A DNA stretch of 64,000 nucleotides from Sphaerolaimus hirsutus (lineage: Eukaryota; Nematoda; Chromadorea; Monhysterida; Sphaerolaimidae), in NCBI GenBank assembly GCA_964036195.1, contig OZ038453.1, forward strand, positions 10,803,469-10,867,468, in the 5' to 3' direction. The notes beneath the pieces are model-generated. The model did no database searches. It had not been told where the DNA came from and saw nothing but the letters and a program-made list of their open reading frames with translations. The translations under genes and the position numbers were made by a program. Numbering within the stretch: the first letter of the stretch is position 1; every line of letters starts with the position of its first letter. This document shows, piece by piece, positions 4,087-54,752 of the stretch.

Positions 4087-5570
4087 AGGGTTCAAACGGG
4101 ATTGACTTAGCGGGATCAGAATCGGCATTGGTTTTTGAGTTTTCGCAAACGGGGTCTGGTCAGGGATCGGGATTCGTTTTTGAGATTCTGGGATCGGAAT
4201 CAAAGTTTCGGGATCGGGTAGGGTTGGGGAACCGAACCGGACCGAACCGAACCGAACCGAGAACCAAGCACAATTTTGGAACCGAGAACCGAGAACCGGA
4301 ACCGAAAAAAATACCCGAACCGGAACCGAGAACCGGCACTCAGACCCGGAACCGAACTAAAGAACCGAAAGAACCGAAATTTTTTACAATAATCAGCGGC
4401 CACCCCCCCCCTTTCCGGGTGAGAGTAGGAAGATGCATGGAAATGTAACTTCCGGCATCAATTTTTAGGCTGATTTGTAAAAATTTTGCACGCAAGCGCG
4501 CAATTCTTGCTTCACGTGACCGGTGATTTCATCTCACCGGTCGCGCAGCCTCATGTGTTCACGATCCCGCCTAAAATGTGTATATGTATGTAAAATACAT
4601 ATACACATTCCTAGGGTGAGACCAGAAAAGTCCAGGAAAATGACACTTTCATTACAATATTCCTACGTTTTGTAAAAATTTTGCGCACAAGTGCGCAATT
4701 TCCCACCACCCACAAGGCATTTCCTCTAGATACTTCCCGTAAATGCAAATCAATGTCAAAACCTCAATTTTTTGCCTGTTGCTGTGTATTGTATGTTTAT
4801 TTACCTACAAATATGTCAGTTTTTGGTGCTAGCGCCAACGCCAATGGCGCCATGGCGTGGCGCCTACAAATGGCGCTAGCGCCTAGCACCATTTCTTCAC
4901 TCAGTATGGAAAAATTTCAGGGGGGGGGGGCTGAGCCCCCCCATTCGCGAGGCTCCGTAAACAAACAGCCCTCCCCCCCACTCCAAAATCCTGGATACGT
5001 CCCTGCCCACCCGTACACCAGGCTCAGTAAACAAACAGACACCATGCTCAAAAGGGGCCTCAAATGTACCTGGCCCCCGAAACAAGGGGTCTACATGCGC
5101 ACTGGGTTTACATGCGCACTGAGTTTTGGCCATCTGGGGCACCTACACCAATGCCAATGGTGCCATGACGTGGCGCCTATGAATGGCGCGAGCGCCATGA
5201 CACCATTCCGCCACTACAGGGGCAAAATTTTAGGGGGGGGTTGTTTTATGTTGTTTTTCCTTTGTTCAGCTTATTAATTTTGTATTCCTGATTTTTTCAT
5301 TACCCGATACCCGACTTTTTCATTACCCGGAACCGAAATTTTTGACAATTTGGGACCGAAAGAACCGAACCGGAACCGAACTTAAGAACCGAACCGAGAA
5401 CCGGAACCGAAAATTTTGAGGAACCGAGAATTGAGAACCGAACCGAAATTTTTTAGAACCGAGAACCGAGAACCGGAACCGAAAATTTTGAAATTCCCAA
5501 CCCTAGGATCGGGACTGCCAAATCCCACAATTTTTTGACATTCGGGATCGGGATCCCGTTTGAACACAAA
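4087..5570. mobile_element. Older hAT-like element hosting a second insertion
   Basis: The left end has GGTTCAAACGGGAT and the right end ATCCCGTTTGAAC. The flanks GCAGGGTT and GCGGGGTT match at 7 of 8 bases. The interior has repeated GGGATCGG-type units. A fragment with the same right end is seen near 18300-18470. The exact terminal bases are uncertain because the right end has diverged. Confidence 0.55.
4219..5505. mobile_element. hAT-like element, GAACCGAACCG family
   Basis: The ends are TAGGGTTGGG and CCCAACCCTA, flanked by an exact 8-bp duplication GGATCGGG (4211-4218 and 5506-5513). Arrays of AACCG and GAACCGAGAACCG lie inside both ends (4229-4370 and 5325-5490). The interior carries debris of the CAGGGACGTA family, ending near 5005. 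A diverged piece of this family lies at about 17930-18003. Confidence 0.9.
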
Positions 5571-5925
5571 GCGGGGTTCGAAACCGTCTGTCAATTTTGT
5601 ATCAGTGCTTAGCTAAATATTCCACATGTTAAAAATAATGAGATGAAAATATGCGCTACAAATTGAGATTAATGCGCGAAACTGAAAGAAATTATGCTCA
5701 AACACGATCATCGCAAAAAAGACTCTTCAAAAACATTTTGAAATAAAAAATCTCAACCCCCCACAGCCTACTACACGGGCCAGGGTCACTCTTTGCTAAT
5801 GACAATAACCCTGGTTGAAATCGGAGCCCTATGCAGACATAGGAGCCCTAGACAGATAATCACGCCAGTGCCAATGGCGAAGTGGACAAGGGATTGGATG
5901 GACATAGACAGGTCGGGTTTGATAC

Positions 5926-6032
5926 TACCGTACATGCTCGAATAAGACCCCCGCGAATAAACCCGCCCCCCCCCCCGTCAAAAACTCAACAAAAAAATAA
6001 CTCTCTGGGGTCTTATTCGAGGATATACGGTA
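5926..6032. repeat. Foldback repeat, GCTCGAATAAGAC arms
   Basis: A 107-base palindrome starting TACCGTA and ending TACGGTA; the arms read CTCGAATAAGACCCC and GGGTCTTATTCGAG. It is the smallest clean copy of the TACCGTATTT family in the window. Confidence 0.75.
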
Positions 6033-6789
6033 AATAGAGCGATGCTACGTTTGTGCTGACTTGACATAACACGATGGCAAATGCGAATGCAAAATGAACT
6101 TTGAAAAATATGACCCTGCTATAATTCAAAGTGCCAAATACTTTAGGGTTTCAAGTTGAAGTTTCAAGTTTTAAGTTCAACTTTTAAGTTTCGTCAATGA
6201 AAGGCGCCACACACGCTGCATGTCAACTGAATTCGTGTCAACTAAATTTCAGTGAATTATGTGATTTCAGCTTTCCTATCTGATAGAGCCTAGTGAAATT
6301 TACACAAAGACACATAATTCTCATTGTTTCTGTTAAGTGTGATGCTTTATAAAAAATTTTTTAGAGTTATTTAGTTGACACAAATTTGCGATGTCAACTA
6401 GCGTGTGTGGGCCCAAAGCGATTTTCAACAGTTGATTTACACATCAAAGCAACTACTTTACAGCGCTATTGAACAAAGTGATCAGCAGATCAGAAGCGAA
6501 CACAGCGTGCAATGAACCCTGAGAATTGGCCACTACAGAATGAAAGGGAAAAAGAATTATATTTATCATGATATGTTATAATTATGGAGGTCTATAAGCT
6601 TAAAAGCCTGAAACGCGCCATCTTTGGTTCGAATTTTTGTAAATATTTATAAAATGACTTTTGTAGCTTTTATTTGCCGTAAGTGTCGTGGGCCTGTGTC
6701 ATTTGATATCTAAGAGCTATATTTTTATTTGTTCCCTTGAATACACCAACTTCTGTACCCGACCCGATGTGATTTTCCAAGGGTACACG

Positions 6790-7245
6790 CAGGGACGTAT
6801 CCAGGATTTTTGAGCGGGGGGGCTGCTTGTTTACGGAGCCCGGCGAACGGGGGGGGGGCTCAGCCCCCCCCCAAAAAAAAAAAATTTTACCTACGTGGTA
6901 GCGGAAAGACGTCATCGTGCTGGCGCCATTCGTAGGCGCAACACCATGGCCCCATTGGCGCTGGCGTTGGCGCCAGAAATCGCTTATATGTATGTAAATA
7001 TACATACGTATAGAGCAAAAACACGCCAATTAGTGTATAAAATAGTGAAGTGAGAGTACGGGGACCGATTTACCAACAATACATCTGCAGAAAGGGCAAA
7101 TGCGCGCATGCGCGCAAAAAATTTTACATTACACCTTCAAAAGTGGTACAACAAGTTGCATTTTCACCGACTTTTTCATGTCCCACCCGGGAACGGGGGG
7201 GGGGGGCTGCAGCCCCCCCCCCCGCCCCACCTGGATACGTCCTTG
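6790..7245. mobile_element. hAT-like element, CAGGGACGTA family
   Basis: The left end is CAGGGACGTATCCAGG; the right end is CCTGGATACGTCCTTG, one mismatch in the outermost six bases. The flanks are an exact 8-bp duplication GGTACACG (6782-6789 and 7246-7253). Long G and C runs sit just inside both ends, followed by TGTTTACGGAGCC-like sequence. Confidence 0.88.
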
Positions 7246-7675: not shown

Positions 7676-9773
7676 CCATGACATCCAGAGATATGTCGAT
7701 GTCCAAACTGCCAGCCTTGTTCACAGCCAGACACGTGTAGGTGCCTTCGTGGTCAAGTTCGGCGCTGGAGATCGTCACCTGAGTGGGCGGAGTCGAGATT
7801 GGGCGAGTGGACTGGATTTTAACTAGGTACATTGTAATTAGGGATGGAAAAAAAGCGCTTTTTTTTAACGGCCCCGCTTTTTTTTAAAAAAAAGCGCTTT
7901 TTTTAAAAAAAAAGCGCTTTTTTTTAAAAAAACGCACTTTTTTCGCTTTTTTTAAAAAATGTCGGGACGTTCACTTAAAAGCTCCCAAATATGGTTCTGT
8001 ATCAATATATACAGGTATATCAGACAAGTGGCAGTGCTTGTGATGATATATAGCCATAGAATGGCTGTGTAGCAATAGGATAGCATTATAAGTGGCGATT
8101 TCTGACAAAAAATACTTTTAATTTTGACTCATTATGTATATCGCCCTTTGTAAATGTTTCGCGACTTCAAGTGAAGTGAGGCATGAAATAGTGCTTATAA
8201 ATAAGGCTATAAGAGAAGGCTAATACATTGAGAGTAATGTTTTACACTGTAGAAGTATGTGGTAGGACATTGGCTGGATATTCTATGCTACACTAACATA
8301 TCACTACTTATTATTATATGATAGCATACAGGAATAGAAGAAATGGAACTAAAAATGCCACAAAACCGATGAAAATAACCACCAGTGCTAATGTGCATGT
8401 GAAATCGCGCGCTTGCGCGCGAAAAATTGGAAAATACCTAGTGTTTAAGTTAGGGTTGGCCGATGTTTTTTTTTAAACGTTTTTTATTAAAAAAAAACGT
8501 TTTTTTTTAAAAAAAAACATGACGTCCCAAATGTTTTTTTTTAAAAAAAAACATCGACCGAAATTTTTAGTACTAAGCACTAGGTATTTTGCAAAAATTT
8601 TGCGCGCAAGCGCGCAATTTCACACACAAATTGACATTGGCGGTTGTTTTAATTGGTTTTGTGGCATTTTTAGTATCAAAGTATCCATTTCTATGTGCTA
8701 CCATGGGTTAATAAGCCGTCATATGTTGCTGTAGTATATAATATTGAGGTAATGTGCTTCCATGTACCTCCACAGTGTGTAACTTCACTCCCAAAGTGAC
8801 AACCTCGTTTTATAACCTTGTTTGATCACTATTCCGTGCCAAACTTTACCTGAAGTCACGAACATTCGACTATAAGGCGATATACGAACGATATGTCGAC
8901 GAAAAATGGATATTTTTGACACAAATCACCACTTATAATGCTATCCCATGGCTCCACAGACATTATATGGTCATATATAACATCACAGAGTATTGCCACT
9001 GTCTGATATACCTATATATGTTGACACAAGGTCATATCTGGGAGCTTTTAAAAAAAAACGTTTTTTATTAAAAAAAAACGTTTTTTTTTAAAAAAAAACG
9101 TTTTTTTTTAAAAAAAAACATCGAGTTAAAAAAAAACGTTTTTTTTCCAACCCTAGTTTAAGTACTGAAAATTTTTGCCAGCGCTCTTTTTTAAAATAAA
9201 GCGCTGGGACCCTTGCGCTTTTTTTTAAAAAAAACGGCGTTTTTTTTAAAAAAAGCGCTTGAAAAAAAGCGCTGGCCATCCCTAATTGTAATTATATTCC
9301 TTTTTATTTTAGTTTGGCAATTTTCCATGGAAAAATTCATTGGTTTGTTAATTCATTAAAAGATTCACTACTTATGGACACACCTACTGCCAAATAGGAT
9401 AAGTTCGATAGAACATTTATCGAAAATCGACAAGAGCAAAAATTGACATAAAATACTGAACATCGATAATTTTTCACATCAAATATCGACAGACAAAATG
9501 TCGATAAAAAATCCGACAGCAACATATCGACATCGAAAAAGTAACAAAACATCAGTCTATAAACCCAACCCAAACCACAAAACATTACCGTTTTCTTATC
9601 TTCCGACAACAACACGCCCCTCAATTCCTGTTCGGGTCTGAGAAGTTGGCCATTTGCCAACCAATTGACATCTGGCTCGGGAACTCCGCGCACGGGACAG
9701 CCGAAAGATATTGAGTTGTTCTGCATTACTCGCACTTTGCGCGACCATTTCGTCTCGTCCAGGTTTGGTGGTA
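7676..9773 (-). CDS. Hemicentin exons 32-33: Ig domain 13
   Basis: Exons 9589-9773 and 7676-7778, residues about 1511-1606. Landmarks are [28 protein letters not shown] then [16 protein letters not shown] and LAVNKAG. Two acceptors fit in phase 0; CTCAG|GTG at 7778 gives an uninterrupted Ig strand and is preferred to the one 12 codons upstream. The intron between the two exons consists mostly of a nested hAT-like pair. The donor ATGG|GTTGGT leaves phase 1, as expected before a further Ig domain. Confidence 0.85.
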
Positions 9774-12700
9774 CTGTTTAGAGTGAAGGGGGATAATTTG
9801 AGTGAGGATTTGTCAAAAAAATAACATTTTTGCACTTGTTTACACTTATCTGTATAACAATCTGCACAATTTTTTCACTGTAATTCACACATTTTTACAT
9901 ACTTTTCACATAAGGCGTTGTGTCTGATAAAAAAATCTGATAAAAAAAACAAGTAAAAAGTGGATTCAAAAAAGTATGTTGGAATGTAGATAGAAGTAAA
10001 AAATGTAAAATGGAAATAATTGCATAGAAACACACAGGAAAAATCCAAAATTCCACAATTTTCCATAAGAAATCATTCAAGCCAAAAAAATGAATACTCA
10101 AGTTCACTAACCCAAAACTTCAACTTCAAAAGTTTTGCTGCCCTCTCCAGCTGGATTTCTAGCGACACACTTGTAAACTCCCGCATCAATAACTTGTGCC
10201 TTATTTATGTGTAAACGTCTGTGGTCTTCTGATAAAACGATGTTTGTGGAGCCTTCGGGAAGGGGGCGCCCATCCATCGACCAAGTGATCTGAATTAAAA
10301 AAGTGAGGTAATAAAGGTTGTGTCGATTTGGAAAAAAGCCAGCGGACATCCAGGCACCCTGAAACATGTCAAACAGAATGTCATGTATACTCGGCGGACA
10401 TCACACTTAGTACGAAAAACTACCATAACCCATCTAATACAGAACCAAATTTTTTAGTTTTTTCATCATAATATTTCGTTAAACTATGAAATAGTTACCT
10501 AATTACGAAATTTATCATAATATTTTATTCACTAAAACATGGTAGGTTTCCATACTATGTGTGCCATCCACCGAGTACAATTAAAATGTAAAATATCTGG
10601 TAAAAAAATAGAAGAAAGTTTGACCAGGAACTTTTTTCAAACATTTACATGAATTTCACAAATTTGTCCGACATCTTTCATTTTACTTCACATTTTACAG
10701 GGTCTGGAACTGGCCCCAGATGGCAAATACATAAATAAACAAAGCATACATTCTCACATTCTCAAAATAGTCCAAAACAATACGAAAACATGTAAAAAAG
10801 ATTTGCGCGTTTAAAGGGATCTTCTGTTTACACAAAGAGATCGCAATCGGACCATTTGATTGACCTCACAACGACCGTATCAAATGTAATTACTTACCTC
10901 CGGTATGGGCGTAGAGAAAACGGGACAATAAAGACTGAAGGCACCGCCAACGAGTACAGTTTCCTTGACGACTTTCTCCTGATCGGGTATGTCTGGTGGC
11001 ACTGAAAAAAGATCAATATCATTGTGAAAGGAAATGTAAGCGCAAGTAGCGACAATTGCCAGAAAACTTCCAGCAGTAACTACCGTATACTAATGAATTG
11101 AACGTAGATTCGCTACTCATCTAAACCCGCTAACGTATCTGATTAGGTTATTCTTTCAGATAAGGTAAAAATTATCGCCCTTCCCAAATCAGAATGCCAA
11201 AAAATGAATACTGCAACGTGGCTGCAAATTCAATCGCCAATACCAACTCAAACCCAACCCACCAATAACAGTCATCTTCACGACTTTCTCGTCCTGGCCG
11301 GCGGGATTCACCGCGCGGCACACGTAGGCGCCGTGGTCCGAGCTGGTCACCTTGTCCAGTTCCAGCGTGCCGTCGGGCCGCACCGACACCCCGTCGGAGC
11401 TGGTGATGCGCGCGCCGCGTCTGAGAGTCGTGGGGGGAATTGAATGGTGTGGTGTTGGTTTCGGTTGGCGATGCACGTAATAGTTGACACGGACGAATGG
11501 TGTCAACTGGGCCGACTCGTTTTGATCCTGCTGATTTTAGTTGACGGGTCGCAGAAGGAAGTTCAGATGCGCATACCAATGTTAATTCATTTTCGACATT
11601 GCCGCATGTGCACTTGGAAATTGTCATGCGACCCGTCAACTGGAATGGAAGCCAGTTGACACCCAGTTTGCGTAGCGCCGTTGTATTTGGAATTGAAATG
11701 TCAGTGAATGTGGGTTAACTGTTCAGACAATTATCCCTGACCGTGAAGAAATAAATATAATATTTTCGGCAACACCAAAATTTGTATCAATTCACACATC
11801 GCATGTAAGCGTCATAACGCTTTTCACTGCCCCGTGAAGCGATTTTTGGGCTGATTAAATTGACAAATCAAACTACAATACACGAAAAATATAAATAAAT
11901 AATAATAAAAAACAGAAAAAGTGTTCACAAACCTGTACCAGTGAATCTCTGGCTTGGGGCTGCCAGTAGCGAGACAGGTCAATCGAATTTCCCCTCCTTC
12001 ACTGACGGAATACTCAGCGGGGGTGGTGGGCAGAATTATTGCCGGCTCTGTGACATTGTGATTTTTTGTGTATTTAAATAAATGTGGTCTAAATAAAATT
12101 TATTGTGCTGCCATTTGTTTAGTTGAGCGGAAAAATTCAGATTCCAAGAATCGACAGATTTGTGTGTGTTTTACATTTATATTGTTTGATATGCGTCATC
12201 GAATAACTGGCCCTTCAAACTAGCTAATAAAACTTTGTTGGCACAAATTTTTTGGTGCATACACATCACCTCCCAACCATGATTTCATGCATACCCTCAA
12301 AGAAACTCACAAATTTCTAACATATCTACGAAAGACAATGGAAAACCTGTCAATGTAGAAAAAAAAACAAGAACTAAAACAACGAACCCTGCACAACCAC
12401 ATTAGTGGTCCTTTGGTCAGAACCAGCTGCATTTTTAGCGACGCACGTGTACGCGCCGGCGTGGGTCAAATCAGCTTTGGACATGCGTAGGGTGCCGTCC
12501 GGGTCAATTGACACGAACGCATCGGGCTGGATCTGAACAGCAAGTTGGTACGAGTTGTTGTCAATCGAAGCGTGCAAATGACCAAAAGCAATAGTGGCCA
12601 AAGTGAAAGTGTAAATATCAATTAGGGATGGCCGAAAAAGGTGATTCAAACGACCTGAGGGGTTTTATAAAAAAAACGGGTTTTTTTCAACAAAAAAACC

Positions 12701-15700
12701 GTTTTTTTAAAGTTCCCAGATATTGTAAATCGGTAAAATACGGTAAATCACACCCCCCCCCCCCAAATCTACAAAACCCACATCAAACGAGTCTTTTTTC
12801 CAGGCGACAGTCGGCTGCGGGGTGCCAATGGCGCGGCAGGGAATTTCCAGGGCAAATCCTAGTGCCACGTCCAGAGTGCCCGCTATGTCGCTGATGATGC
12901 GCGCGGGTTCTGGGAAGGGATGGGAAAAATGTTTTTTTTTGTCGTTTTTGGTGTGTTTTTTGGGAGTTTTTCGGCTTAAGTGTTGATGAATGTATTTAAA
13001 TGAATCGTAATTCAGACCGGAATGATTCAGGGATTGCGGCAGAAGTGAAGAATTTAATGTATCCGTTCAAACCAAAAGAACACCAAAAGAACCACAATTC
13101 GTTTAGAACCAGATGATAATACGTATTAGAAATATCTTTAGACATTCAAGTATTAGACTTTAAACCGGCAACGTTTCAAAAGATGTTTTGACCGATAATG
13201 GATGAAAAATAGGCAGAGAGATTTTTTTAATTTTCCGGATATTTATCATTGATAAAAAATTCCGCCGGATTAAAAAAAAAATTTATTCGATTGTGCGAGC
13301 CAAAGACAAGACGCGGTTTGAAAAATTTGAGCAGTTCTCGGTATGCAAAAGTGGACCTGCAAAATTTACATTTGCAATAAATATCTAAAATAAAAAACGA
13401 ACCCTGAACAATAAGCTGGTAAGTAATTGAATCATTGCCAGCCAAGTTGGAAACGAAACAAGTGTAACGTCCATCGTGTTGCATCTGGGACCGATCGATT
13501 TCAAGTGCACCATTGCCAGTGAAACGGAGTTCCTGGAGAGAAAACACAATTTAAAAAAAAAATCAAAACAAATGAAGGAAAAGTGAGTGAGAATATAATC
13601 ATGTGCTAAACATGCTAATGAACGCATGAAAAATGACGGGTAATGTTTGATATTCGCGATAAAATCTTTTAAATTTAAGATATCCTCGTCACTTTTGCCA
13701 GTTTTCACATGAATTTTTACTGTGAATTTGAAAATATGTCGTCTGCAACACTTGTAAATAAGTATTGACAGACGAAAAGTTCATTGTGCAATTGAATACT
13801 TACGTTCAGATTCTAAATACAGAAATCTTGATTGAAGTTATTTCGAAAAATTCTACTGAAACTAGAAATCAATAGAAACAAGCAAAATATCACTTAACAA
13901 ACATCGCAAACGTGACAAAATGCAACTGGGCAAAACGGGACAAAAACGAACCGATCCATAAGAATACCCCTTGAACACTTTTCGGTCTTCAAAAGTCCAA
14001 ACTCTGGTAGGCGGCGGTTCGGCGAGCGCGGGACACGGCAAAATTGCAGTTTCATTTACAATCACTTGGATAGTTCTCGTCTCGGCAGTGATTTGAGGGA
14101 TGGCTGTAAGAGATTTTTAGGAAATTCGAGTGGAAACTTGAAAAACTATATACCGTATTTGCTTGAATATTCCCCCCCCCATCGAATAACTTTAGGCGTA
14201 TGTGAAATCCCCCCCCCCCACATTAGCGATATGACTTATTGTGTGTGATTTGAACAAAAATGGCGTTACATTGTTAAAAAGTATATTTCATGAAATGCGG
14301 CAATAGAAATATCCTTGAAAATTTGAACGAAACTATAATCCCCCTTGAATAGTCCCCCCCTCAAAAAGTCTGACGAAAACATAATTCCCCATAGAAATTA
14401 TTCGAGCAAATACGGTATATACGTGCATTGAAATACATAACATATACATTCGAAATACATAGTAATTACACCACAACAACCCTATTCCCAATCCACCACA
14501 ATCTACCCCAACCCCAAAAGCCCCCCCCCCAACCAACTGTGCACGGTGAGCGTGACCTCCCTGGCGTCGGTGCCGACCACGTTGGTGGCGACGCACTTGT
14601 ACTTGCCGCGGTCGTGCGCCTCGGCGATGTTTAGGGTTAGGGAACCGTCATCGTGAACTGTGTGATCGGCTGTGACCAGGCCTTCCTGTGGGGGGAAGTG
14701 CGATTGGGGATGTTTTTTAAGAAACCGTTTTTTTTTTAAAGGTTTAGAAACTTTTGAAAAAACATCGACCGTCCCCAGTGTGAATGATAGGTTATTTTGT
14801 GATTTGAGGTGATAAATCAAATAGACCGGATCAATGTGCTTAGATCAAATTTGGCAATTAGAAAGTTTAGAACAACACTTGTCACATCTTACTTGCTATG
14901 CGTGACGCTTGATGTGCATAATCCGCCAACACTCTCTTACCGTATACCACAGAATAAATAAACATATAAACGGAGGACGGGTCCACATCAATAAATGTAA
15001 TGGACAACATTTCTCGAGACAAACCTACAACTATCATACAAAAATAGTCATGAATACAAACATAATTTCCCAAAACAACCCCCCGACAACTGTTCGCAAA
15101 AACAGACCTCGTGAAACCACTCCACCTGCGGCTGGGGGTCCCCCTTGGCCCGACACGCTACCGTAACCGACTGCCCGTCAATCACATTGTATACGGTAGC
15201 GTCGGGCAGAATCGTGGGCGGTAATCGCACGTGTACGGTAACCAAACGGCGAGTTTCCCCGGCGGAATTGGACGCGCGGCAAGTATAGAGCCCGGCGTCG
15301 TTTGCGGTCGCTTTGTGGATGTGCAGCGATCCGTTTACCTGGATTACGAGTATGGGGGTGACGGTATTTACTAAGGGGGTCTCCAAGCGTGTGGTGGGGT
15401 GCAGAAAAAAAACCCTTGAAATTTTTTTTCCAAAAATTGCCAGATAATTAAGATTGCAAGACACTCTTGATTTTGTTTTGTTTTTAAACGGGATTCTAGT
15501 CTAGTAGGGTGCAAAGGCTGTATACTAGAATATTAGTCAGTTCATATTTGTACACTTATGCACACTCGATCCTCAACTACATAATTCAAAAAGTATCGAC
15601 TTTCGTAATTACAAGCTTTTTTGAAAGTCACATAACCGATATGTATGAAAAATTATCCGAATAAAATAAATAAAAAATTATAAATTTATTTGAAATATCT

Positions 15701-41703: not shown

Positions 41704-42999
41704 TTCCGTATTTCCTCGAAAACCCCCCGGGGGGTGATTGTTTCATAGTGGTCCCGAGAAGGGGGGGGGGGGGGTAAACGAGGGGGGATGGGGTATTTCG
41801 AGGGGGGGTTATTATTTCGCCAAAAATTTCATTTTTTCATTATTTCAAATCCTAGTACAAAATCGCCGTTTGTGATGTACACTGGGGTAGAAAAATGCAT
41901 CACACAGTGAAACGCAGTTCTCCGACAACTCGCTGCCAACTTGCTTGACAACCATCAAAATAAGTGGCAGCTCGCTGCCAAAAAAATGCAGCTTGCTGAC
42001 AGCTCGCTGACAATTTACTTGCCTCTGGTTGTAACTAGCTGACAAATCGCTGCCAAAACATTATTCATTTGACCCAAAATAAATTGTTCACTTGTAGCGA
42101 TGGAACATTAGGTGGCGTTGAGTGCAACGCATGGTAAAATAAAAATAATAAAGCAAAAACGAGTCAAAGCATTGAAAATTAATGAAGCAAAAACAAGTTA
42201 AATCATTGAAAATTAAAAATGCACTGTGATAAAACATTGTATTTTGTCAATTGAAATCATGTAGAAATCAAAACGAAAATCATAGTTGCTCTATACATTT
42301 TGATTAATGTAGGAAGTGTGGACTCTTCACATCAGTGCAATACCAATCAACTGTGATCATTTCTTCTCAACAGATTGGAACTTTTAATGAAATAGTGTCA
42401 CTACCCAATAGTTGCAACATTATAATGCATTGATTTTATGTCCCACATACATTAATTTTCTGCACTTGTTTGATTAGGTATACATTTTTTTGGGGTCAAA
42501 AAGATTTGTACACACTTCCATAAAGTGCATGTGGTACAAATTACATTCAGCTTGCTGACAACTCGCTGCCAGCTGTGCAGCTGCTAAAAAATGCACCCCA
42601 ACTTTCAGCCACTCGTTGACAAACATGATTCCAACTCGCTGCCACTCGCTGACAACTGGCTGCTAAGTGTAAACAAGGCATTGTCAGCAAGTTGAAAGCT
42701 AGTTGTCAGAGAAAGGCGTTTCACTGTGTCAATAACTGACATGTATAGACTCCTGTAGACTAATAGTAGTACGCAGATGGTATAAACACTGTTCTAACGT
42801 GATTACGACATATATTGTTTTAACGTGTGTTCTGCACTACGCAGAACACAAACTGCAGTATTTGTCATGTACGTTCTCTTTACACTCAATCTGGGGGGTA
42901 TTTCGTGGGGGGGGGGTGATTGTTTCATAGTGGTCTCGAGAGGGGGGGGGGTCAAACGAGGTGGGTATTTCGAGGGGGGTATTTCGAGGAAATACGGTA
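41704..42999. repeat. Foldback repeat interrupted by a CACTA-like element
   Basis: Left end CCGTATTTCCTCGAAAA, right end TTTCGAGGAAATACGGTA. Without the insertion at 41903-42728 it would be about 470 bases, the size of the clean copy at 47567-48007, and has the same core in reverse orientation. A second, partial copy in the opposite sense continues to about 43320. Confidence 0.78.
41903..42728. mobile_element. CACTA-like non-autonomous element
   Basis: The ends are CACAGTGAAACGC and GCGTTTCACTGTG, flanked by a 3-bp duplication TCA. Subterminal regions carry many copies of CTCGCTGACAACT / CTCGCTGCCA units. The host repeat has an uninterrupted copy at 43150-43195 (in reverse: AATGCATCAATAACTGAC), which shows the exact empty site. 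The CAC ends with a 3-bp target duplication fit the CACTA (EnSpm) group. No transposase frame remains. Confidence 0.87.
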
Positions 43000-44979: not shown

Positions 44980-46175
44980 ATTGAGGCGTCCAATTCTAAA
45001 AGTCGACAAGTCCAAAATATGAAAATTTTGAGTTAGACCCGGAAACGTCATCTGGGGGCAGTCCCAAGCCCTGTAAAGTGTAAAGTAAAGTGTCAAATGT
45101 AAAGTCAAGTGTCAAGTCAACTGTCAAATGTAAAGTAAAGTGTCAAATGTAAAGTCAAGTGTCAAGTCAAATGTTAAATGTAAAGTAAAGTGTCAAATGT
45201 AAAGTAAAGTGTCAAATGTAAAGTCAAATGTAAAGTAAAGTGTCAATTGTGTATCCAAATCTTATTTTTCGTATCCAAATCTTATGTTTTTGTATCCAAA
45301 TCTTATGTCGAAAAATAAAATTTGGATACAAAAACATAAGATTTGGATACGAAAAAAATAAGATTTGGATACACAATTGACACTTTACTTTACATTTGAC
45401 ATTTGATTTGACACTTGACTTTACATTTGACACTTTACTTTACATTTGACATTTGACTTGACACTTGACTTTACATTTGACACTTTACTTTACATTTGAC
45501 ATTTGACTTGACACTTTACTTTACATTTGACATTTGACTTGACACTTTACTTTACATTTGACACTTTACTTTACACTTTACAGGGCTTGGGATTGGCACC
45601 TGGGGCTACTCCCGCACATTTTTCATAATTTTCCATAGATTTTTTAACCTCACATGCCCATATGGCAAAGTGCCAAATTTGACATTTTTGAGAAAAATGC
45701 AAAAAATTTGTGCAAGAAGTCGACAAGTCCACTTAGTTTTGGGCTAAAAGTCGACAAGTCCACCTTCCGCCGCCTTCTTTTATGGGAAAAAAAAGCAAGA
45801 AATGTGATAAGTCCATCATGGACACCGATTTCAAAAAGTCGACAAGTTCAGAAATTTCCCATAAGGCAGGCGCAACCTGGGCGGGAACAAAAATGTTCTC
45901 GAGTGCAAGAAGCCGACAAGTGCATTTTCCTCCCCAAAACAGTTTTGTTCGGTCCGAGTAGAATTTTATAGACACCCAATTTTTCCATTATACGTTGAGA
46001 GCAGGGGCTGAAAATTTGACACTTAATTGTTAACATTTGGAACTTAATGTTGAGCATGAGAGAGCGCCATTGGACACGCACCTCGGACCTGGAATTGGAA
46101 ATGAAACTTAAAATGCGATTTACTCAAAATCGCATTTTGTGGACTTGTCGACTTTTAGAATTAGACGCCTCAATT
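44980..46175. mobile_element. Inverted-repeat element with GTCGACAAGTCCA motif, composite
   Basis: Ends are TTGAGGCGTCCAATTCTAAA and TTTAGAATTAGACGCCTCAA, followed inside by GTCGACAAGTCC at both ends. The motif GTCGACAAGTCCA recurs at about 45001, 45718, 45751, 45837, 45909 and 46141. The element is split by the large foldback at 45053-45605. No clear target duplication was seen. Confidence 0.65.
45053..45605. repeat. Large foldback built of GTAAAGTGTCAAAT units
   Basis: The left arm (about 45070-45245) is an array of GTAAAGTGTCAAATGTAAAG and GTCAAGTGTCAAGTCAA units; the right arm (about 45370-45585) is its inverse. The centre has ATCCAAATCTTATTTTTCG in both orientations. The ends GGGGGCAGTCCCAAGCCCTG and CAGGGCTTGGGATTGGCACC link it to the CAGTCCCAGACCC-ended repeats at 48239 and 62115. 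Confidence 0.8.
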
Positions 46176-46448
46176 ACAAACATCAATTTGCCAATTGCCC
46201 CTAAATTTGCACCTCATTTACTTCGTGACCTGAGATATATTTATTTACATCTGATGTAGACAGTGTACGGGACATACATAATTTCGGTTACGGTAAAAAA
46301 CGCATACCTATCTAACTATTCGAAGTCAATCGAAGTCAAAATTACGGTCAAATACAAATGCATTTGTATCACAGGGGACGCATATGCCATAGACAAATAA
46401 AATATTGAAAATTCTTCAAAAAAATCAAAATTCGGCAGTATCATCAGG

Positions 46449-49400
46449 TCAGGTCTCATTTTCGGTAGTATCTTCAGGTCTCATTTTCACCATAATGAAG
46501 AAAAATGACACCACACCACTTATCATCTGCAGTGGGGGTACAAAATGGACAATTATTATTACCTCTCAAAATTTGTCAATATTTGGAAAAACTTTCGATC
46601 AATTTACCGTAAAAATGACCGGTCTGTCAAAACGAAATGTCCTCCACGCTGTTAGACCCCAGAGTTCCTGTGTCTGCAGCTTTCGAAATACATTGCTAAT
46701 CTGAGAGTAAAATTGGCAATTGAAAAAACTACGAATTTTTCAAAAATTTAGGTACCGTATTTCCTCGAAATATGCCCTCCCCTTGAAATATCTCCCCTCA
46801 AAATGGACACTATGAATTCACAAGCAACAATTTAGTACTTGGATTTATAACAATTTCTGGCGTAATAATAAACCCCCACCTCGAAACACCCCCCCTCGTT
46901 CAACCCCCCCCCTCAAAATTCAGCTCTGAAAAATAGACCCCCTGGGGGTATTTCGAGGAAATACGGTAATAAATTTTTACCAGGAACAATTTCGGGTCAT
47001 CTGGACACTTTGCAGTCCACTTGATAAGTGGTCCGGTCACGGTACGAACCTGTATGTTAAATGCTATTTTTAAACAGTGAAACCAGTGTGAAGGCCAATT
47101 TGGCGCTATAACTAAAAGTTAGAAAAGCTAAAAGTGAACGAAATTGTCGCGACTCGTCATGAGTAACAAAAAGTCACTATAATTTCAGTAATCGTTTTCC
47201 CTACCACATTGTTTCATTTGACATACCAGCTCATTTGATCCAATAGCGATATAACATATGCCGGCGATATTTATGAACGCAATGACAACTTGCACACTAG
47301 TCCACATCATGTTGAAGCTGAGAAATTTCGGCAACTTTGAGTAACATGAAATGGACATTTTTATACTTTTTAGGGACGGAGAAAAAATCTACAAGAACAT
47401 GAAGGACTGAACGCTTCACACACAAGTTTATGAATACCATATTTCGATGAAAAAAATTGTGAAATTTGTCCACTAACTCACAGATGCTTTAATTTTCTAT
47501 CACTTTAATCAGATGTGATATGGTAGATTTTGTTTGTTAAGTGGATGTTCATCGCCTACATATAAATACCGTATTTCCTCGAAATACACCCCCCCTCGAA
47601 ATACCCCCCTCGTTTGATCCCCCCTCTCGAGACCACTATGAAACAATCACCCCCCCCCCCCTCGAAATACCCCCCCAGATTGAGTGTAAAGAGAACGTAC
47701 ATGACAAATACTGCAGTTTGTGTTCTGCGTAGTGCAGAACACACGTTAAAACAATGTCGGAAACACGTTAGAACAGTGTTTATACGATCTACGTGAGTCT
47801 ATACATGTCAGTTATTGACACATTTTTCTACCCCAGCGCACATCACAAACAACGATTTTGTACTATGATTTCAAAAAATTTCTTGCGAAATTATACCCCC
47901 CCTCGAAATACCCCTCCCCCTCGAAATACCCCCCCTCGTTTAACCCCCCCCCCTCGGGAGCACTATGAAACAATCACCCCCGGGGGGCATTTCGAGGAAA
48001 TACGGTACTTGTACGTTCAATCAATTGTATAAAAATACGCAGTGAAACAGCATTTTAGCCCATTACTTTGACCCCAACCGATACTCAAACAAAAGACACT
48101 TACGCCAAGACAAATCTGAGCATTCTGCCCTGCTCAGAATCAACCATTGCAGCCCTGCGCAAACCCTCCGGGAACAAACTGGTAATTGTAGCATAGTGCA
48201 GAAAGTATAATGTTAAGCACAGCGTGACCAGGGGCCAGTCCCAGAACCTGTTAAAGACCCTGTAAAATGTCAAAAGTTGTAACATGGACTGTAAAATGGC
48301 AAACGTACATTTGCCATTTTCCAGGGAATTTTACATGACTTTTGAAACTTTACATAACATTTGACATTTTACAGGGTTTTTACATGACTTTTGACATTTT
48401 ACAGGGTTTTTACATGACTTTTGACATTTTACAGGGTCTTTTCACCAGAGTTGGAAAAACGTATTTACGTTTACCCGAAATACCCGGTTATTTGGGTATT
48501 TATATTTACGTTTACGTTTACGTTTTCCAAAAATACCATTACGTTTTGTTACGTTTTCCTGGCACAATTACCCGGGTACCAGAGGAAACGTAAAAATCGT
48601 ATGGAAAATGCACAAAAACAGTGCATTTTTGAAATTTTTTTTGATACAATGAGTAAAATTTATGTTTTTGGCCAATTATCTTCTTAATTGTTTGATAAAT
48701 AACATAGGTAAGCAAGAATGTGATCGTATCAGCAGAGAAATGGTTGAAATCGGAAAAACAAAAGTGTTTTTCAATGCACTTGATCATGGGTGGTGCACTT
48801 CAAAGAATTTTTTACGTTTACTTTTTTTTAACGTTTACCTGGGTATTTTAGAAGTATTTTACGTTTTCAGTATTGATACTCACAATTTAGAAAAGGTATT
48901 TACGTTTACGTTTACGTTTTCCAAAAATACCAGTATTTGTACAACTCTGCTTTTCACAGGGTCTGGGACTGGCACCAGGGGCCACGCCACGCCCAGAAGT
49001 AGCCAAGCGCCGAAAAGTTTGCTCGCCAGTTTCTGTGCAAATTTGGGAGATGTAAATATTTTGGTTCTAAATACATCTTTTTTCAGCAGAATCTTTCCCA
49101 TTGAATTTGATATACCGTATTTCATCGAAATACCACCTCCTCGAAATACCCCCCCCTCAAAATGGAAACTTTGAATTCATAACCCCCCCTCGAAATACCC
49201 CCCTCTAAATGGACACTAAAGATGCCCCCTTTGTGGCACACCTGTACTTTCGTAAATGATATAAATCTGTCGTAGAATGGTTGCAACTGCAGTATGCCTC
49301 TTCTGACCCGCCGTTCGGTCTGCTCCACCATCAGCATGCAATACTCATTCAATTGCACCTGCGTGAAGGGCGTGAGTAATGGTCGTGAGTAATGGCACTG

Positions 49401-51745
49401 GCGCCATAGATTATGGCGTTGACGCCATTTGTCATCGCCACACATGATTCCGTCCTATTGCAGTCTGGTGATTGCTATACTTGGCAGACATGATACTCTA
49501 CAAATAGATATGATTTATGTCTTCGGCTGGCAGACGGCCAACTGAAAACTTATGAATCAACAATTCGCAAAAAGAAAAAAACAACGTTAAACACCAGAAT
49601 TGACTAAAGTGATGACGTCATGATAAAGTGTTTCCTCCGGAAAAATGTACGGTGTAATGTCATACGCTGTATACGCTCTATAGTGTATACGCTGTATAGT
49701 GTATACGCTGTATAGTGTATACGCTGTATAGTGTATACGCTGTATAGTGTATACGCTTATACTCTGGCGCCATTCTTTTTCGAATTACGAATTTTTGAAA
49801 TATACTTATTATTTTGGACGTTTCGCATTTTTGTTTCACAAACACATACAAATCGATTATTTTTTTCTAGACAAATTCAAAAAAGTTTTGAATTTTCCAA
49901 TTTCTTTCAATATTTTTGGCTGAAAATGGGTATGAAGTGCAGCAACGCAAATTATTGAGTTCAGCCATAAAATATTGTGAAATCGAGCCAAAAAACAACA
50001 AACAACAAAAATAACGCATTTAACCTGCACGAAGATGAAATATGCGAGCGGCAGCAAGTTTACCAGTGCGATAAGCGGCACCAACAACATGCTCATGTTC
50101 ACTGGGAATCCACGGGAAAATCTGAATTTTCCAATTAACAATTCCTCCGTGAAACTGGCGCAGACCAGCGGTAAAACTGAAAGAAATTTGACAAATTTTT
50201 TGATATTATAGTATCGAATAAAAACGTGACATATTACTAAAAATCAATCTGTAAAAATGATTAAAAACACGTAGAATTTGGATTTATTCATAGAAACAAT
50301 GCCGTATTTCTTCTAATAGATGGACGTCTCGAATAGAAGGCCCGCCTTCTAAAAAAATGTCGACAAAATAGAAAGAAGGGTGCCCTTCTATCAGAAGAAA
50401 TACGGTAAATTCTTTTGTAGTTCCACCAATTATGTACTACACTTCGATTACACAAACTCTGAAAAAAATGTAGGCAAAAAGTTACAACATTCAAAAAGAC
50501 AATATCACAGCTGAGCCAACCTAGGAAACCAATACCTACAAAAAAGCCTTTTCTTTTGTTACCATAATTTGGCCTGTGGTGAAATTGAGAGAACATATCC
50601 ACCCTTAGCGCGTCCATTGCTGCTACCAATTTTTGGTGCGTTTTGTGTCGCAAACAGAAAAGAATGCAATTCATCAAAGCAATCATTGGTTTAACGCCTG
50701 TGCAAAAGGGGGTTTATTTTGGGGGTCTGTGCAAAAAGGGAACGAAAATTCACAAAAAATGTACTGTATTTCCTCGAGATACCCCACCCCAGGGGGTTCA
50801 TTTTCTCATAGTGAAATTTTGGGTCAGGGGGTGTATTGTTTGATTTTTCTACGTCTGAGTATGTGGCATTTCACAAACTTTCTGGCGAAATAATACCCCC
50901 CCCCCTCGAATAAGCCCCCCCTCGAATTACCCCCCCCCCTGAAAATTTGCTGGCGAAATAATAAACCACCTGGGGGTATTTCGAGGTAATACAGTACACT
51001 GATTTCAGGTTAGATAATTTCAAGGGGGTTATCAATTCATAGTGGCCATTTTGAGGGTGGTATTTGAGGAAATACGGTATGCTTCTCACCAGTAATCACA
51101 CTGCATACTGTTAGCAAGTTTAGAACTCCGCTGGCTTTCGCGTGAAAATTCCACAATTTCAGTGTGAAAAAGCAGCAATACGCATAGATGCCCATCACAA
51201 AAATGGTGTGTAATGGCCAATAAAATCTCACAAATTGGTTCCATTTCGACAATTTGTCCCGATGTGTTTGGTAACATTCAGTTTGTATTGGTTCGTTGCT
51301 GAAAAAATAAAGAGAGGTAGGCAGTTAAGTTCGCAAACGAAAATCACGGTCAACTCACATTTCCCGGTTGTCAACAGAAATATCCATATCGAAACGCGTA
51401 TCGGCGCCGAGCGCGTGCACATTCTTCATAACCCTCCCGCATCTGCATTTTGGCGATGTGCCAACGGCAACTGTTACCGACCCCTGCCCAAAGTTCACAG
51501 TTTCACTTTCCTCCCTCCCCGTTTCCAATTCAACATTGGCATTGGCGCAGGCGTTTCTGCCACAGACGCACTTGCTCAGAGTTCCGTCGGTGGTGTTCGA
51601 GCCCAGCTTGGAGCGGTACAGGCCGCACAGCTGCGACGAGGTGTACGGTAGTTTGCGAAGGGTGGGATTTAATTCGATGGGTTATGGTAACCTGAAGAAG
51701 TGATAAAACTGGCCGGCACTGGTTGATCCATTCGTTTTCGTTCAT
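46449..51745 (-). CDS. Gustatory-receptor-like seven-helix chemoreceptor
   Basis: Twelve exons (51692-51745, 51359-51630, 51090-51298, 50563-50697, 50025-50176, 49248-49358, 48986-49032, 48104-48178, 47227-47317, 46981-47049, 46608-46700, 46449-46526) keep phase at all junctions and give 461 residues, a usual size for the 7tm_7 family. Typical features: the N-terminal CRPVLSLLQLCGLYRS, a helix followed by LFCLRHKTHQKLVAAMDAL, helices LLVPLIALVNLLPLAYFIFV and VVIAFINIAGICYIAI, the C-terminal TAWRTFRFDRPVIFT and a last helix SGVVSFFFIMVKM where insect receptors have TYLVVLIQF. These proteins are ligand-gated channels or receptors in sensory membranes; the ligand cannot be predicted. An unusual Cys-rich, GT-rich loop (residues 30-108) precedes helix 1. 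The exon 7 donor (GGC|GTGGCC) is weak and was chosen only because phase 2 is needed; a repeat starts beside it. Exons 3 and 10 each have a foldback 5-7 bases past the donor. Confidence 0.82.
46753..46968. repeat. Foldback repeat just past a splice donor
   Basis: Starts TACCGTATTTCCTCGAAATA and ends ATTTCGAGGAAATACGGTA, 216 bases. It ends six bases from the donor of receptor exon 10. Confidence 0.8.
47567..48007. repeat. Foldback repeat, cleanest full copy
   Basis: 441 bases; starts TACCGTATTTCCTCGAAATA and ends TTTCGAGGAAATACGGTA. The core holds GAACGTACATGACAAATACT, AGTGCAGAACACACGTTAAA and GTCAGTTATTGACACATTTT. It serves as the reference for the interrupted copy at 41704-42999. Confidence 0.83.
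48239..48980. mobile_element. Repeat with CAGTCCCAGACCCTG-type ends, hosting another element
   Basis: The left end CAGGGGCCAGTCCCAG and the right end CTGGGACTGGCACC are inverted. Inside are three copies of a 30-base unit (ACATGACTTTTGACATTTTA). The hAT-like element 48446-48949 is inserted in it. Its right end touches receptor exon 7, so exon and repeat boundaries cannot be separated by eye. Confidence 0.6.
48446..48949. mobile_element. hAT-like element, TTTACG family, second copy
   Basis: The ends are CAGAGTTGGAAAAACG and GTATTTGTACAACTCTG, as in 22665-24357. It has an exact 8-bp duplication CTTTTCAC (48438-48445 and 48950-48957). It lies in the intron between receptor exons 7 and 8, inside an older repeat. 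Confidence 0.92.
49664..49757. repeat. 16-base tandem repeat
   Basis: About six head-to-tail copies of TGTATAGTGTATACGC, with one changed base in the first unit. It lies in the intron between receptor exons 5 and 6. Confidence 0.9.
50300..50407. repeat. Foldback repeat, TTCTAATAGA variant
   Basis: Starts GCCGTATTTCTTCTAATAGA and ends TCAGAAGAAATACGGTA; the inner arms are GAAGGCCCGCCTTCT-like rather than C runs. It is the most diverged member of the TACCGTATTT group. Confidence 0.65.
50762..51079. repeat. Foldback repeat just past a splice donor
   Basis: Starts TACTGTATTTCCTCGAGATA and ends GAGGAAATACGGTA, with an internal second right end (TTTCGAGGTAATACAGTA at about 50980-50998), so it is two copies merged. 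It ends four bases from the donor of receptor exon 3. Confidence 0.75.
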
Positions 51746-52449
51746 GATTAGATTTTTATTGGGAAATTGCGGTGTCTGGTTTTCTGCTGATTACTGCAGG
51801 TTTGTCAGTTTTATACTTTATAGTTAACACCTGAATATATTTATATAGTGTGGCAACTGTTAAAAATGACATAGGTATCTGAAAACATTTTAAGCTTGGA
51901 AAAAGGCCTCGGAAACAATCTCAATCTTATTTTAATCGTCTCATTTAACTACGATTGAATAATAAGCACAAAGTTTACAGATATACATAAACAGGTAAAA
52001 GAACCAGTAAATATTCAGCTAAACGCCTGAAGCAGTACTAAATAGAAAAGCAATATGCTTGAATGGACGCCGCTATAAGCAGAAAGGTAAAACACAATGA
52101 TGTGTACTTTCATACATTTTCATTAGTCAAATGGGGCAGCTCCATGGAAATCATGTCAAGCTTTCATAGATTACCTACATTTACATCCAAAACATCCAAT
52201 GCTCAAATACATTATTGATATTTTTGTTTGGCATATTTTCTTCATTTGATGGTCTTGCTACAGTATTCTTTTATATTTGAATCTCACTGGGGCTTTATTT
52301 TTAAACAAGTGTGATCAGAACATAGTTGACAATTCTAGAAAGTATCCATACTTTTGAATAAACTACCCACTACTTACCCAACTTTAGCAGGTTTGGAATA
52401 CTAATTTATAACTTCCCACCTTTTTTATAACTTTCCAAGAACTAGAAAT

Positions 52450-52707
52450 GGTGTATTTCCTTAAATTACCCCCCGGGGGTTTATTTTTTCAGAGTGGAAA
52501 TTTTGAGAGAAAAACGTGAAAAATGCAACCATAACCACCATTTATAAGTTTTTACAGCCTTATATAAGGATGTAGATGGTATAAACGATGTTCTAACGTA
52601 ACACAGTACGTGTTTTCAACGTCTGTTATGCATTTCCCAGACCACAAATTCATAGTGCCCATTTTGAGGGGGTATTTCGAGGGGGGGTAGTTCGAGGAAA
52701 TAAGGTA
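52450..52707. repeat. Foldback repeat, diverged copy
   Basis: Starts GGTGTATTTCCTTAAATTAC and ends TTCGAGGAAATAAGGTA. The core has ACGTAACACAGTACGTG and TTCAACGTCTGTTATGC, matching the GAACGTACATGAC subfamily in reverse. Confidence 0.65.
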
Positions 52708-53711
52708 GCTCAGTGAATCTGCTATTCAATGTTGCGTTAGGATTTAGGACAGAGTGGCTGTGGGGTGAAACATTCTTCAAATGTGTTATTGCACCCATTT
52801 CAATCGGACTTCTGCGGGGGGGGGGGGTAGAGTTATTCAAATGGGGTCACCCGAATGGGGGGGGGGGTAATCGAATTCTCGTGTACTTTTCTGCCGGCTG
52901 TCATTTTTGACATGCTTTGAATTGCGATTCTACGGCTCAGAGAACTTATTCAAGCCAGGGTTCATTGAATAAGAATGTGCTAATGTTTAATATCGCAGAT
53001 GCTTGCCGTGATAGGCGGCACGCAGTTGGCTTATCACAGGAAATCAATTCCTATCACTTTAATATTTAGTTCCAGTAAATATGAACGCACTGTGAAATGA
53101 TGCATCTTATAAATATAACACACATGCCACCAAGAGTATTTCTTCAATTAATCATGATGAAAGCGAGTGTGTAGTTGGGTACTTGTTGATGCGTATTGTG
53201 CAAATGACATACGAGGATTTGAAACATACATTGTATCATATATTTTTTTATCTGCCCTCGGGTACGCATTTGTATAAACATTTTGTCACGGGGTATTTCA
53301 TGAGCGAGTTTCGAAATGTTTTACTAGAAAAGTGTGCAAAGTTACGCTATGACTTTGACATCATTTTTTAAAAATTCAATCACACAGGTTGTGTATTGGC
53401 TAGGAAACATCAACTGGAATACAAATTCCGTGAATGTGATGACCCAATGTTTGGGCTCTTTCATGTATGCCGACATTGCTTCTAGTGTGAATTGTTATAT
53501 TTTGCAGATGTACATGTAAAAGATCTTAAAAGCATTACAAACAATCTTCCAACAATGAAATTTTGCATTTCAAGTGAAAACCTTTCTGAACAATAAATAC
53601 TACTTAAAGATCATATTTAGAGTGATTACTGCTTAAAGTTTACTTTGAATTTTCGTTAATACCGTTCAGAGGGCTTTCTGCATCTCACATAATTTATGCA
53701 ATAAGCACACA

Positions 53712-54136
53712 TACCCTAAATCCTTGAATAAGACCCCAGGGGAGTCATTTTTTCGTCAGACGTTTTGGAGGGGGAGTTATTCAAGGGGGGAGGGGTTATT
53801 CGAGGGGGGGAGTTATTATTTCCCCAGGAAACTTGGACTGAATTTATTGTATGGATGCAGTATGTAAACTCGTGTAATTCAGGTATTTCACTGTCCAACA
53901 ACAACAAAACAATGTGTATACACTGCATACAAATTATGTACATATCTGCTGTCGCTGCCATATGCTACTATTAGTTTATAGTTTTGTATTGTATCCTTTT
54001 CATCAGAGGGAGGAGTTATTTAAGAGGGGGAGTTATTCAAGGGGAAGTTATTTTTTCCTCACCCCGCCAGCAGGGGGGGGGGGGGACTTATTCAAGGGGG
54101 TGTTAATCCAGGGGGGTCTTATTCAAGGATTTGCGG
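53712..54136. repeat. Foldback repeat, TCCTTGAATAAGACCCC arms
   Basis: The left arm TCCTTGAATAAGACCCC pairs with GGGGTCTTATTCAAGGA on the right, both differing in the same way from other copies. The interior has further GTTATTCAAGGGGG and GTTATTCGAGGGGG units. Confidence 0.72.
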
Positions 54137-54586
54137 CAAATATGTAATACACCCGTGTAAATATGTATAATAATAAGCTTGTAAGTATCTAATGAAGGAA
54201 ACTCCGCTTCCAATGCAATTGGAATGTAAGCAGCACAAAAGTGGGGGAGCATTTCATGGAATGGAGCACTATGTATCATCTTCAAGCTTAGTGATCAGCA
54301 ATAATAAATAAAATGGCGCCGCACAGGCAAAAGATACAGTCAGCTGGGGTGAAATTTAGACAGAGGCACGTTATCAAGTGAGAATACCGGTACCTTGTCA
54401 AGTGAAATATTTTTAGAGAAAGTTTAATATCCCATGTCTGATGACTGAAGTTTCGTATAATTAATAACGGGCATATTGATTAACATAAAGACATATCTTC
54501 ACCAAAAGTACTTCATCAAAATTCATAAAATTTATCACGTACTGATTTTGGCAAATCGCCAGAATGGAATAATTGAAGGCTATATT

Positions 54587-54752
54587 TAGGGCTTGAACTC
54601 GACTCGACTCGTGACTCGAAGGTAAAAATGGGTGCCGAAGGACTCGGCTCGACTCGACCGAAAAAAATTCGTAATGACTCGGACTCGGTATTTTTGGCCG
54701 ACTCAAGATTCGATTTTCACTGATTCGACTCGCCGACTCGACCGGTAAAATT
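54587..54752. mobile_element. One-ended hAT-like fragment with ACTCG array
   Basis: Begins TAGGGCTTGAACTCGACTCG and continues as an array of GACTCG/ACTCGACCG units for about 160 bases. It looks like one end of a hAT-like element of the same style as the AACCG and TCGATAT families; no matching right end was seen. Confidence 0.5.

Follow-up and report, generated by a model that had tools for sequence, protein, structure and literature searches.

Can a transposon with many binding sites for its enzyme change the sequence which that enzyme recognises, and can a record of such a change be found in a genome? A joint change in the specificity of a transposase and of its many sites is hard to study, since every site must change. 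The question is raised by a stretch of 64,000 nucleotides from the nematode Sphaerolaimus hirsutus (NCBI GenBank assembly GCA_964036195.1, contig OZ038453.1, positions 10,803,469 to 10,867,468 of the forward strand), hereafter called the window (64 kb), which contains a set of small transposable elements of the hAT superfamily, most of them with arrays of a short CG-containing motif inside their ends. Two of these elements, designated C and D, are homologous over their full length, and the cores of their arrays differ in register at both ends; the pair may be a natural record of such a change. A palindromic module was also found in the interior of several families, and it cuts across the family boundaries drawn in a preliminary description of the same DNA. 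The elements themselves are of a known kind; the switch of cores between C and D is the new aspect, and the pair is unusual and useful.

Sister elements C and D

Element C (7839-9284, + strand) has TAGGGATGG ends, the target site duplication ATTGTAAT, and arrays of A/T-tract units with a GCGC core. It is interrupted by element D (8451-9155, - strand), which is nested in it in opposite orientation, has TAGGGTTGG ends and the target site duplication GTTTAAGT, and carries A/T-tract units with an ACGT (or ACAT/ATGT) core. For comparison, the nested D and one copy of its duplication were removed from C, and D was reversed. The two elements then aligned from tip to tip over 740 columns (521/698 identical, 42 gap columns; blastn: 744 columns, E 2.6e-113), and the empty site of C across the insertion junction can be read from D. 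The asymmetry of the tips is kept as well, one end being GGAAAAAAA in both elements and the other GGCC in both. By this homology, which includes the tips, C and D are one lineage, with D nested in its own sister element; the preliminary description had listed them as separate families, and this separation has to be given up.

The arrays of both elements are near-tandem with a period of 20 bp. All eight GCGC cores in the arrays of C face ACGT (four), ATGT (two) or ACAT (two) in D, i.e., at 8/8 positions the two members of the lineage do not share the motif core; loss of CpG turns ACGT into ATGT or ACAT. The word AGCGCT occurs seven times in C and not in D, and AACGTT six times in D and not in C. 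Mismatched columns amounted to 20/32 in the cores versus 30/169 in the other array columns (Fisher p 7e-7), with 124/474 in the interior. In one array the five cores of C stand 104, 84, 70, 30 and 16 bp from the tip, each matched by a D core at an equal distance, and D has two further core-type words there, at 75 and 50 bp. Given this uneven spacing (20, 14, 40 and 14 bp between successive cores), each unit of C can be paired with one unit of D. The pair can be read as an in-place motif switch, possibly a natural record of a transposon changing the sequence recognised by its enzyme.

A third core type may be present at 12623-12723 (+ strand), where two units, A8-CGGG-T7 and A7-CCG-T7, come after TAGGGATGG and lead to AGTTCCCAGATAT; this word differs at one base from its counterpart at that boundary in D. 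Against D, the stretch had a local score of 68 (maximum of 300 shuffles: 32); the part outside the array was weak when taken alone, its score being reached by 8/1000 shuffles against D and by 19/1000 against C. These similarities suggest a one-ended relative of C and D, and the case is suggestive only, since it consists of one end and two units.

Identification of the elements

Transposons of the hAT superfamily have short terminal inverted repeats of the type YANNG. The window was scanned for intervals of 80-4000 bp with YANNG ends, at least 8 of 9 matching terminal bases and an exact duplication at the flanks. Ten intervals with exact 8-bp duplications were obtained, compared with a mean of 0.02 and a maximum of 1 in 100 shuffles; for exact duplications of 5 to 11 bp the counts were 9, 2, 1, 10, 0, 0 and 0. 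When the YANNG rule was dropped, 23 pairs were found at length 7 and 23 at length 8, i.e., no 8-bp excess, presumably because matches inside the arrays swamp the count; the excess depends on the known hAT end rule. The tips are of the TAGGG, CAGGG, CAGAG and TAGTG types and fit YANNG.

Eight of the ten intervals had been reported before, and here the preliminary description proved reliable: the elements starting at 4219, 6790, 8451, 7839, 19776 and 21454 all have the coordinates, ends and exact 8-bp duplications given for them, both copies with TTTACG arrays are complete with a duplication of their own (22665-24357, CATATTAC; 48446-48949, CTTTTCAC), and the element at 37468-37765 has the imperfect one of 7/8 (CCCGCGAC/CGCGCGAC). 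The two additional intervals are 23673-23962, nested in 22665-24357, and 3524-4075. In total, ten elements have exact 8-bp duplications and one has 7/8, and the nine outer intervals sum to 7,429 bp. The hAT-type anatomy of 8-bp duplications, YANNG ends and subterminal arrays was borne out, and the elements are real and of an ordinary kind, namely small non-autonomous hAT transposons; individual families of this type may already be catalogued in Repbase or Dfam.

Besides C and D, the following elements were distinguished. Element A (4219-5505, +) has TAGGGTTGG ends, the duplication GGATCGGG and AACCG arrays at 4230-4376 and 5331-5481 with 15 copies each; a truncated right end of the same family is found at 17931-18003, with the last base of the tip changed. 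Two elements with CAGGGACGTA-type tips carry TGGCGC words on one side only: B1 (6790-7245; CAGGGACGTATCCAGG-type ends, CAGGG/CAAGG; duplication GGTACACG) has five of them at 6921-6975, and B2 (19776-20206; CAGGGACGTACGCAGG ends; duplication GTGCACTG) has six at 20054-20090. Element E (21454-22215) has TAGGGTTGGGACGATAT ends, the duplication CTGCACCA and TCGATA arrays at 21477-21637 and 22084-22194. Elements F1 (22665-24357, +) and F2 (48446-48949, +) both have CAGAGTTG ends and TTTACG arrays, which in F1 are mostly on the + strand at both ends. F1 is host to element H (23673-23962, +), which has CAGAGTTG/CATAGTTG ends, the duplication CATTACGG and AAAGTA and AAACGTAAA words, and of which a relative is present at 39771-39916. 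An inverted repeat of CGGCCGTAAAGTA in F1, noticed by eye at 23606-23996, encloses H, and a further small element may lie between F1 and H. Element G (37468-37765) has TAGTGATGT ends and a TGGCGC array over its whole length, with 20 words at 37481-37751. The interval 3524-4075 has hAT-like ends and the duplication GACGCAGG, and no CG-motif array.

Some ends remained single. A GACTCG array at 54587-54740 (+), with nine copies all on the + strand, follows TAGGGCTTG, and its partner end was not found in the window; likewise, no partner end with a duplication was found in the window for the ends at 1927, 12623, 39916 and 41262. The stretch 33614-34348, with TAGTGATG ends, was considered as a further G element and was not counted, as its flanks do not match. 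Its TGGCGC-array ends (33614-33794 and 34279-34348, TAGTGATG tips) flank a stretch that encodes part of a VWA domain (domain match 33613-34149, minus strand). Scans with exact patterns of viral contigs and of bacterial and archaeal genomes yielded no relative, which says little about animals, since the collections consisted of prokaryotes and viruses; a viral contig with a 17-base match had no TCGATA array and no partner end accompanied by a duplication, and was taken as chance.

Subterminal arrays

Motifs were counted in the outer 160 bp of each end (in the halves of short elements) and compared with 200 shuffles. Counts reached by 0/200 shuffles were obtained for AACCG in A (29), AAGCGC in C (11), AAAACG in D (11), TCGATA in E (31), TTTACG in F1 (11) and F2 (10), TGGCGC in G (19) and B2 (6), and GACTCG in the one-ended array (9). 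A significant array is thus present in most elements, the exceptions being B1 and 3524-4075. In A, AACCG is found on the + and - strands in numbers of 15+0 at the left and 15+0 at the right end; for TTTACG the numbers are 4+1 and 6+0 in F1 and 4+1 and 5+0 in F2. Both motifs keep one strand across the element, so that their arrays are direct, though the tips are inverted. Just outside element C, at 9405-9530, six TCGATA words occur within 126 bp, with no hAT tips.

The ends of F1 and F2 are 93% identical over 152 bp and 88% over 144 bp, with the TTTACG array in both; between their middles blastn gave no match beyond array-like stretches and the nested H. The truncated copy of A keeps AACCG beside its tip (score 74; maximum in 300 shuffles: 31). 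These comparisons support, if thinly, the conservation of the array within a family, as two families with two copies each are concerned; free variation of the arrays within a family, by which the preliminary description would have been contradicted, was not seen in either of the two.

Internal palindrome module

The word TGCGCGCAAGCGCGCA, with up to two mismatches on the better strand, occurs in seven copies, which are all inside elements: two in A (4487-4502 and 4682-4697, both +) and one each in B1 (7101-7116, -; GCGCATGCGC), C (8406-8421, -; GCGCTTGCGC), D (8601-8616, +; GCGCAAGCGC), B2 (19904-19919, +; degenerate) and E (21985-22000, -; GCGCTTGCGC). The other four matches have four mismatches each and lie outside the elements (27320, 33106, 3158 and 33098). 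Profiles were built without a given group and then searched over the 64 kb; the copies left out were recovered with E values of 5.7e-10 and 2.8e-9 (A), 1.4e-7 (B1), 3.6e-12 (B2), 4.1e-12 (D), 1.5e-4 (C) and 2.4e-11 (E). The best match outside any element had an E value of 0.033, and no credible copy was detected by profile in F1, F2, H, G, the GACTCG array or 3524-4075. On the evidence of these matches, the GCGC palindrome module is common to four families, A, B, C/D and E.

Its orientation is fixed, with the nearer element end located 5' of all seven copies. The distance from that end is 128-268 bp in six copies, exactly 150 bp in both C and D, and 463 bp in the second copy of A. The module resembles the consensus of NRF1, GCGCNTGCGC (PMC10810270); five such sites are present in the window, whereas 100 shuffles gave 0.19 on average; the fifth site lies at 34281 in a TGGCGC array. 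When the palindrome and 12 bp on each side were masked, similarity between interiors was left in the pairs A-B1, A-B2, A-E, B1-B2 and B2-E, and none was detected between B1 and E, or between C or D and the others. In a separate comparison of interiors, z values of 3.4 (B1 vs F1) and 3.1 (A vs C) were treated as marginal. Several families share interior sequence across different ends, which goes beyond the family boundaries proposed earlier.

Interpretation

The best explanation, to which we would assign a probability of about 0.72, is that these are non-autonomous hAT transposons moved in trans, with the arrays as docking sites, that the cores of C and D changed by way of the mobilising enzyme, and that the internal module was kept. 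The hAT transposases would be supplied from elsewhere in the genome; the transposase would cut at the short YANNG ends and leave the 8-bp duplications which are observed. The arrays most likely dock the BED zinc fingers of a multimeric transposase, to judge from Ac, Hermes and CGGBP-type hATs, and would thereby give specificity. The units of the sister lineages C and D have different 4-bp cores at corresponding places, with spacing, tips and interior homologous; the likely cause would be a change of the enzyme mobilising the lineage, either by evolved specificity or by recourse to a different transposase, which could have favoured copies with matching sites. The GCGC module may possibly be a remnant of the transposase promoter of autonomous ancestors.

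The preliminary description had regarded the families as variants of one layout differing mainly in the motif, as if arrays and transposases had diverged together. The single layout holds for C and D, which are full-length homologs with cores differing unit by unit; elsewhere it does not, since the families differ in tips and interior and the motifs are not unique. Joint divergence of arrays and transposases is a conjecture for which one lineage gives some support, from the DNA side. That each family has a dense subterminal array is correct for A, C, D, E, F1, F2, G, B2 and the GACTCG array, and not for B1; that each has a motif of its own is contradicted by the recurrence of AAACGT, TGGCGC and AAGCGC across families.

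Several observations weigh against the proposed explanation. The motifs overlap between families: AAACGT ranks among the seven leading 6-mers in D, F1, F2 and H, TGGCGC is present in the interior of A as well as in G, B1 and B2, and AAGCGC in both C and G. For B1, the TGGCGC count of 2 in the outer 160 bp was reached by 14/200 shuffles and is not significant. Concerning the switch, three further cores of D stand opposite words in C that are not GCGC (CCGC-, CGCA- and CGGCG-like), and the core columns were picked on the GCGC words of C, so that the 16/16 mismatches in the outer core positions are partly built in; the only independent evidence consists of the words opposite in D and the spacing common to both elements. 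An unusual conservation of the A/T tracts between C and D was considered as well; the control spoke against it, with array A/T columns mismatched in 5/132 cases versus 20/253 in the interior, i.e., they are not exceptionally conserved. There is a single full C/D pair, which fixes neither the direction nor the cause of the switch. As to the module, the copy in C is weak by itself (E 1.5e-4), B1 and B2, though relatives, were omitted singly when the profiles were built, GCGCNTGCGC is exact in 4/7 copies only (B1, C, D and E), and A and B may not be independent carriers, since the interior of A looks B-derived. Finally, no match to a transposase or BED domain in Pfam was obtained in six frames of 22665-24357, 20200-24402 and 36000-55892 and in four frames of 4219-5505, a coverage that excludes the remainder of 1-20 kb as well as 24-36 kb and 56-64 kb, among them B1, C, D and the greater part of B2; the sole sub-threshold match in the scanned frames was to Bfc (E 0.077) and is unrelated. 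As the elements are non-autonomous, absence of a transposase is to be expected.

The shared module could instead be debris of a CAGGGACGTA-type element, which was inserted into the other families or captured by them. Nested B debris is indeed likely in A, the interior of which matches B1 in two colinear blocks (B1 421-309 and 218-1; 331/456 bp), including the B tip at 4990-5005. For the module as a whole we consider this origin unlikely, if not implausible: C, D and E have no match to the B tip (E values up to 0.01), masked C and D show no similarity to other elements, and random capture would not give seven copies with the nearer end 5', six of them at 128-268 bp.

Rather improbable is a change of the cores with the enzyme remaining the same, in which unequal exchange, slippage or gene conversion spread a mutated unit and a tolerant transposase put up with it. 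Near-tandem arrays are prone to homogenisation, and the arrays of C and D, with their 20-bp period, have one core dominant per element. However, re-amplification would tend to erase the register, and in one array, with cores unevenly spaced at 20, 14, 40 and 14 bp, those of C and D are still in register; the alignment is gap-free there after the junction region, a spacer such as TGGGAC is kept, and both ends of the element have changed alike. A variant with unit-by-unit gene conversion may apply. The notion that ordinary repeats converged by chance on CG-containing simple sequence, with hAT-like ends read into them, can draw on the many low-complexity tracts of the window, on 3524-4075 with its hAT-like ends and no CG-motif array, and on the missing 8-bp excess in scans made without the YANNG rule, but is practically negligible and refuted for the set of ten, since with the rule ten exact 8-bp duplications stand against 0.02, the counts at 6, 7, 9 and 10 bp being 2, 1, 0 and 0; a single member such as 3524-4075 could still be due to chance.

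C and D supply matched substrates, with GCGC and ACGT arrays on a common backbone, by which the evolution of an enzyme can be weighed against a change of masters. On a wider reading, which we put forward with much reserve, non-autonomous hAT lineages would persist by changing masters, with one chassis, marked by the conserved NRF1-like module at a fixed place in its interior, and the arrays as interchangeable address labels. Such a chassis might conceivably be handed on among several transposase systems, its subterminal arrays being rewritten or exchanged; ACGT versus GCGC, and perhaps ACGG, in the C/D lineage, as well as the AACCG, TCGATA and TGGCGC arrays around related interiors, would be doubtful candidates for cases of this kind.

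Other features of the window

The G+C content of the window is 39.8%, and the observed/expected ratio of CpG is 0.96, which is close to expectation. Ten open frames of gene regions contained Ig and VWA domains (minus strand) or no domain according to Pfam; those with Ig and VWA domains are presumably hemicentin-like. Two full-length U4 small nuclear RNA genes, inverted to each other, are located at 55457-55597 (-) and 55966-56106 (+), with 96.7% identity over 150 bp; together with the Ig and VWA frames they point to a probable origin in an animal nuclear genome. A frequent repeat of CCCCCCTCGAAATA-like units is present in many copies in both orientations (24360-24472, 28097-29017, 41703-43311, 46746-48007, 49103-49203, 50759-50996, 52453-52707, 53712-53850, 56378-56462, 57446-57895 and 58463-58838), one of which starts only a few bases from where element F1 ends. 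Blocks of a 50-bp satellite-like repeat at 45072-45250 and 45373-45582 are inverted around short repeats of about 21 bp. An interval of 4,850 bp (42860-47709) has 9/9 matching terminal bases (ATTTGTCAT) and an exact 8-bp flanking repeat (ACTGCAGT); it is off the YANNG rule and may be due to chance.

Comparison with known systems

In a literature search covering titles and the starts of abstracts, with Repbase and Dfam outside it, neither in-register switching of cores nor an NRF1-like interior module was found for hAT elements among the papers listed. The elements are similar to maize Ac/Ds in their 8-bp duplications, short terminal inverted repeats, a repeated CG-containing hexamer in the outer 200 bp and non-autonomous relatives with a filler interior (PMC3260210); Ac binds AAACGG repeats (PMC3260210). 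For Ac/Ds one hexamer is described in that source, whereas here full-length homologs carry two, perhaps three, cores.

In Hermes, the BED domains bind subterminal repeats in an asymmetric arrangement, with the antisense direction at one end and the sense direction at the other (PMC10368747), which may be comparable to the direct AACCG and TTTACG arrays. The Hermes motif, however, is AAG(T/C) without CG, with 17 and 14 occurrences in the two ends (PMC10368747), and near-tandem 20-bp units such as those of C and D are not among the features described in the relevant part of that source.

Host factors with BED fingers offer a resemblance of words only. The DREF site TATCGATA contains TCGATA, the array word of element E, and ZBED1 binds TGTCG(C/T)GA(C/T)A (PMC6179265); for ZBED6 the consensus is GCTCGC (PMC2780926). 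Unlike the enzymes considered here, DREF, ZBED1 and ZBED6 are host transcription factors and not transposases.

A parallel on the protein side comes from the CGGBP/hAT-19 group of DNA-binding domains: BED and Hermes domains derived from hATs vary in specificity, with CGG, CGC, GCGC or AT-rich sequences as their targets, and four hAT proteins have a motif that agrees with subterminal regions of the element to which each belongs (PMC8097297). Two neighbouring coelacanth paralogs have no common high-scoring 8-mer in the data described there (PMC8097297), so that a change of specificity among close relatives has precedent. DNA-binding domains of hAT origin repeatedly became host DNA-binding proteins with varied, often CG-containing sites (PMC8097297), and the same route could help to explain the origin of host-protein specificities. 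That evidence concerns proteins across species, whereas here the DNA side is seen in one 64-kb window, without the proteins.

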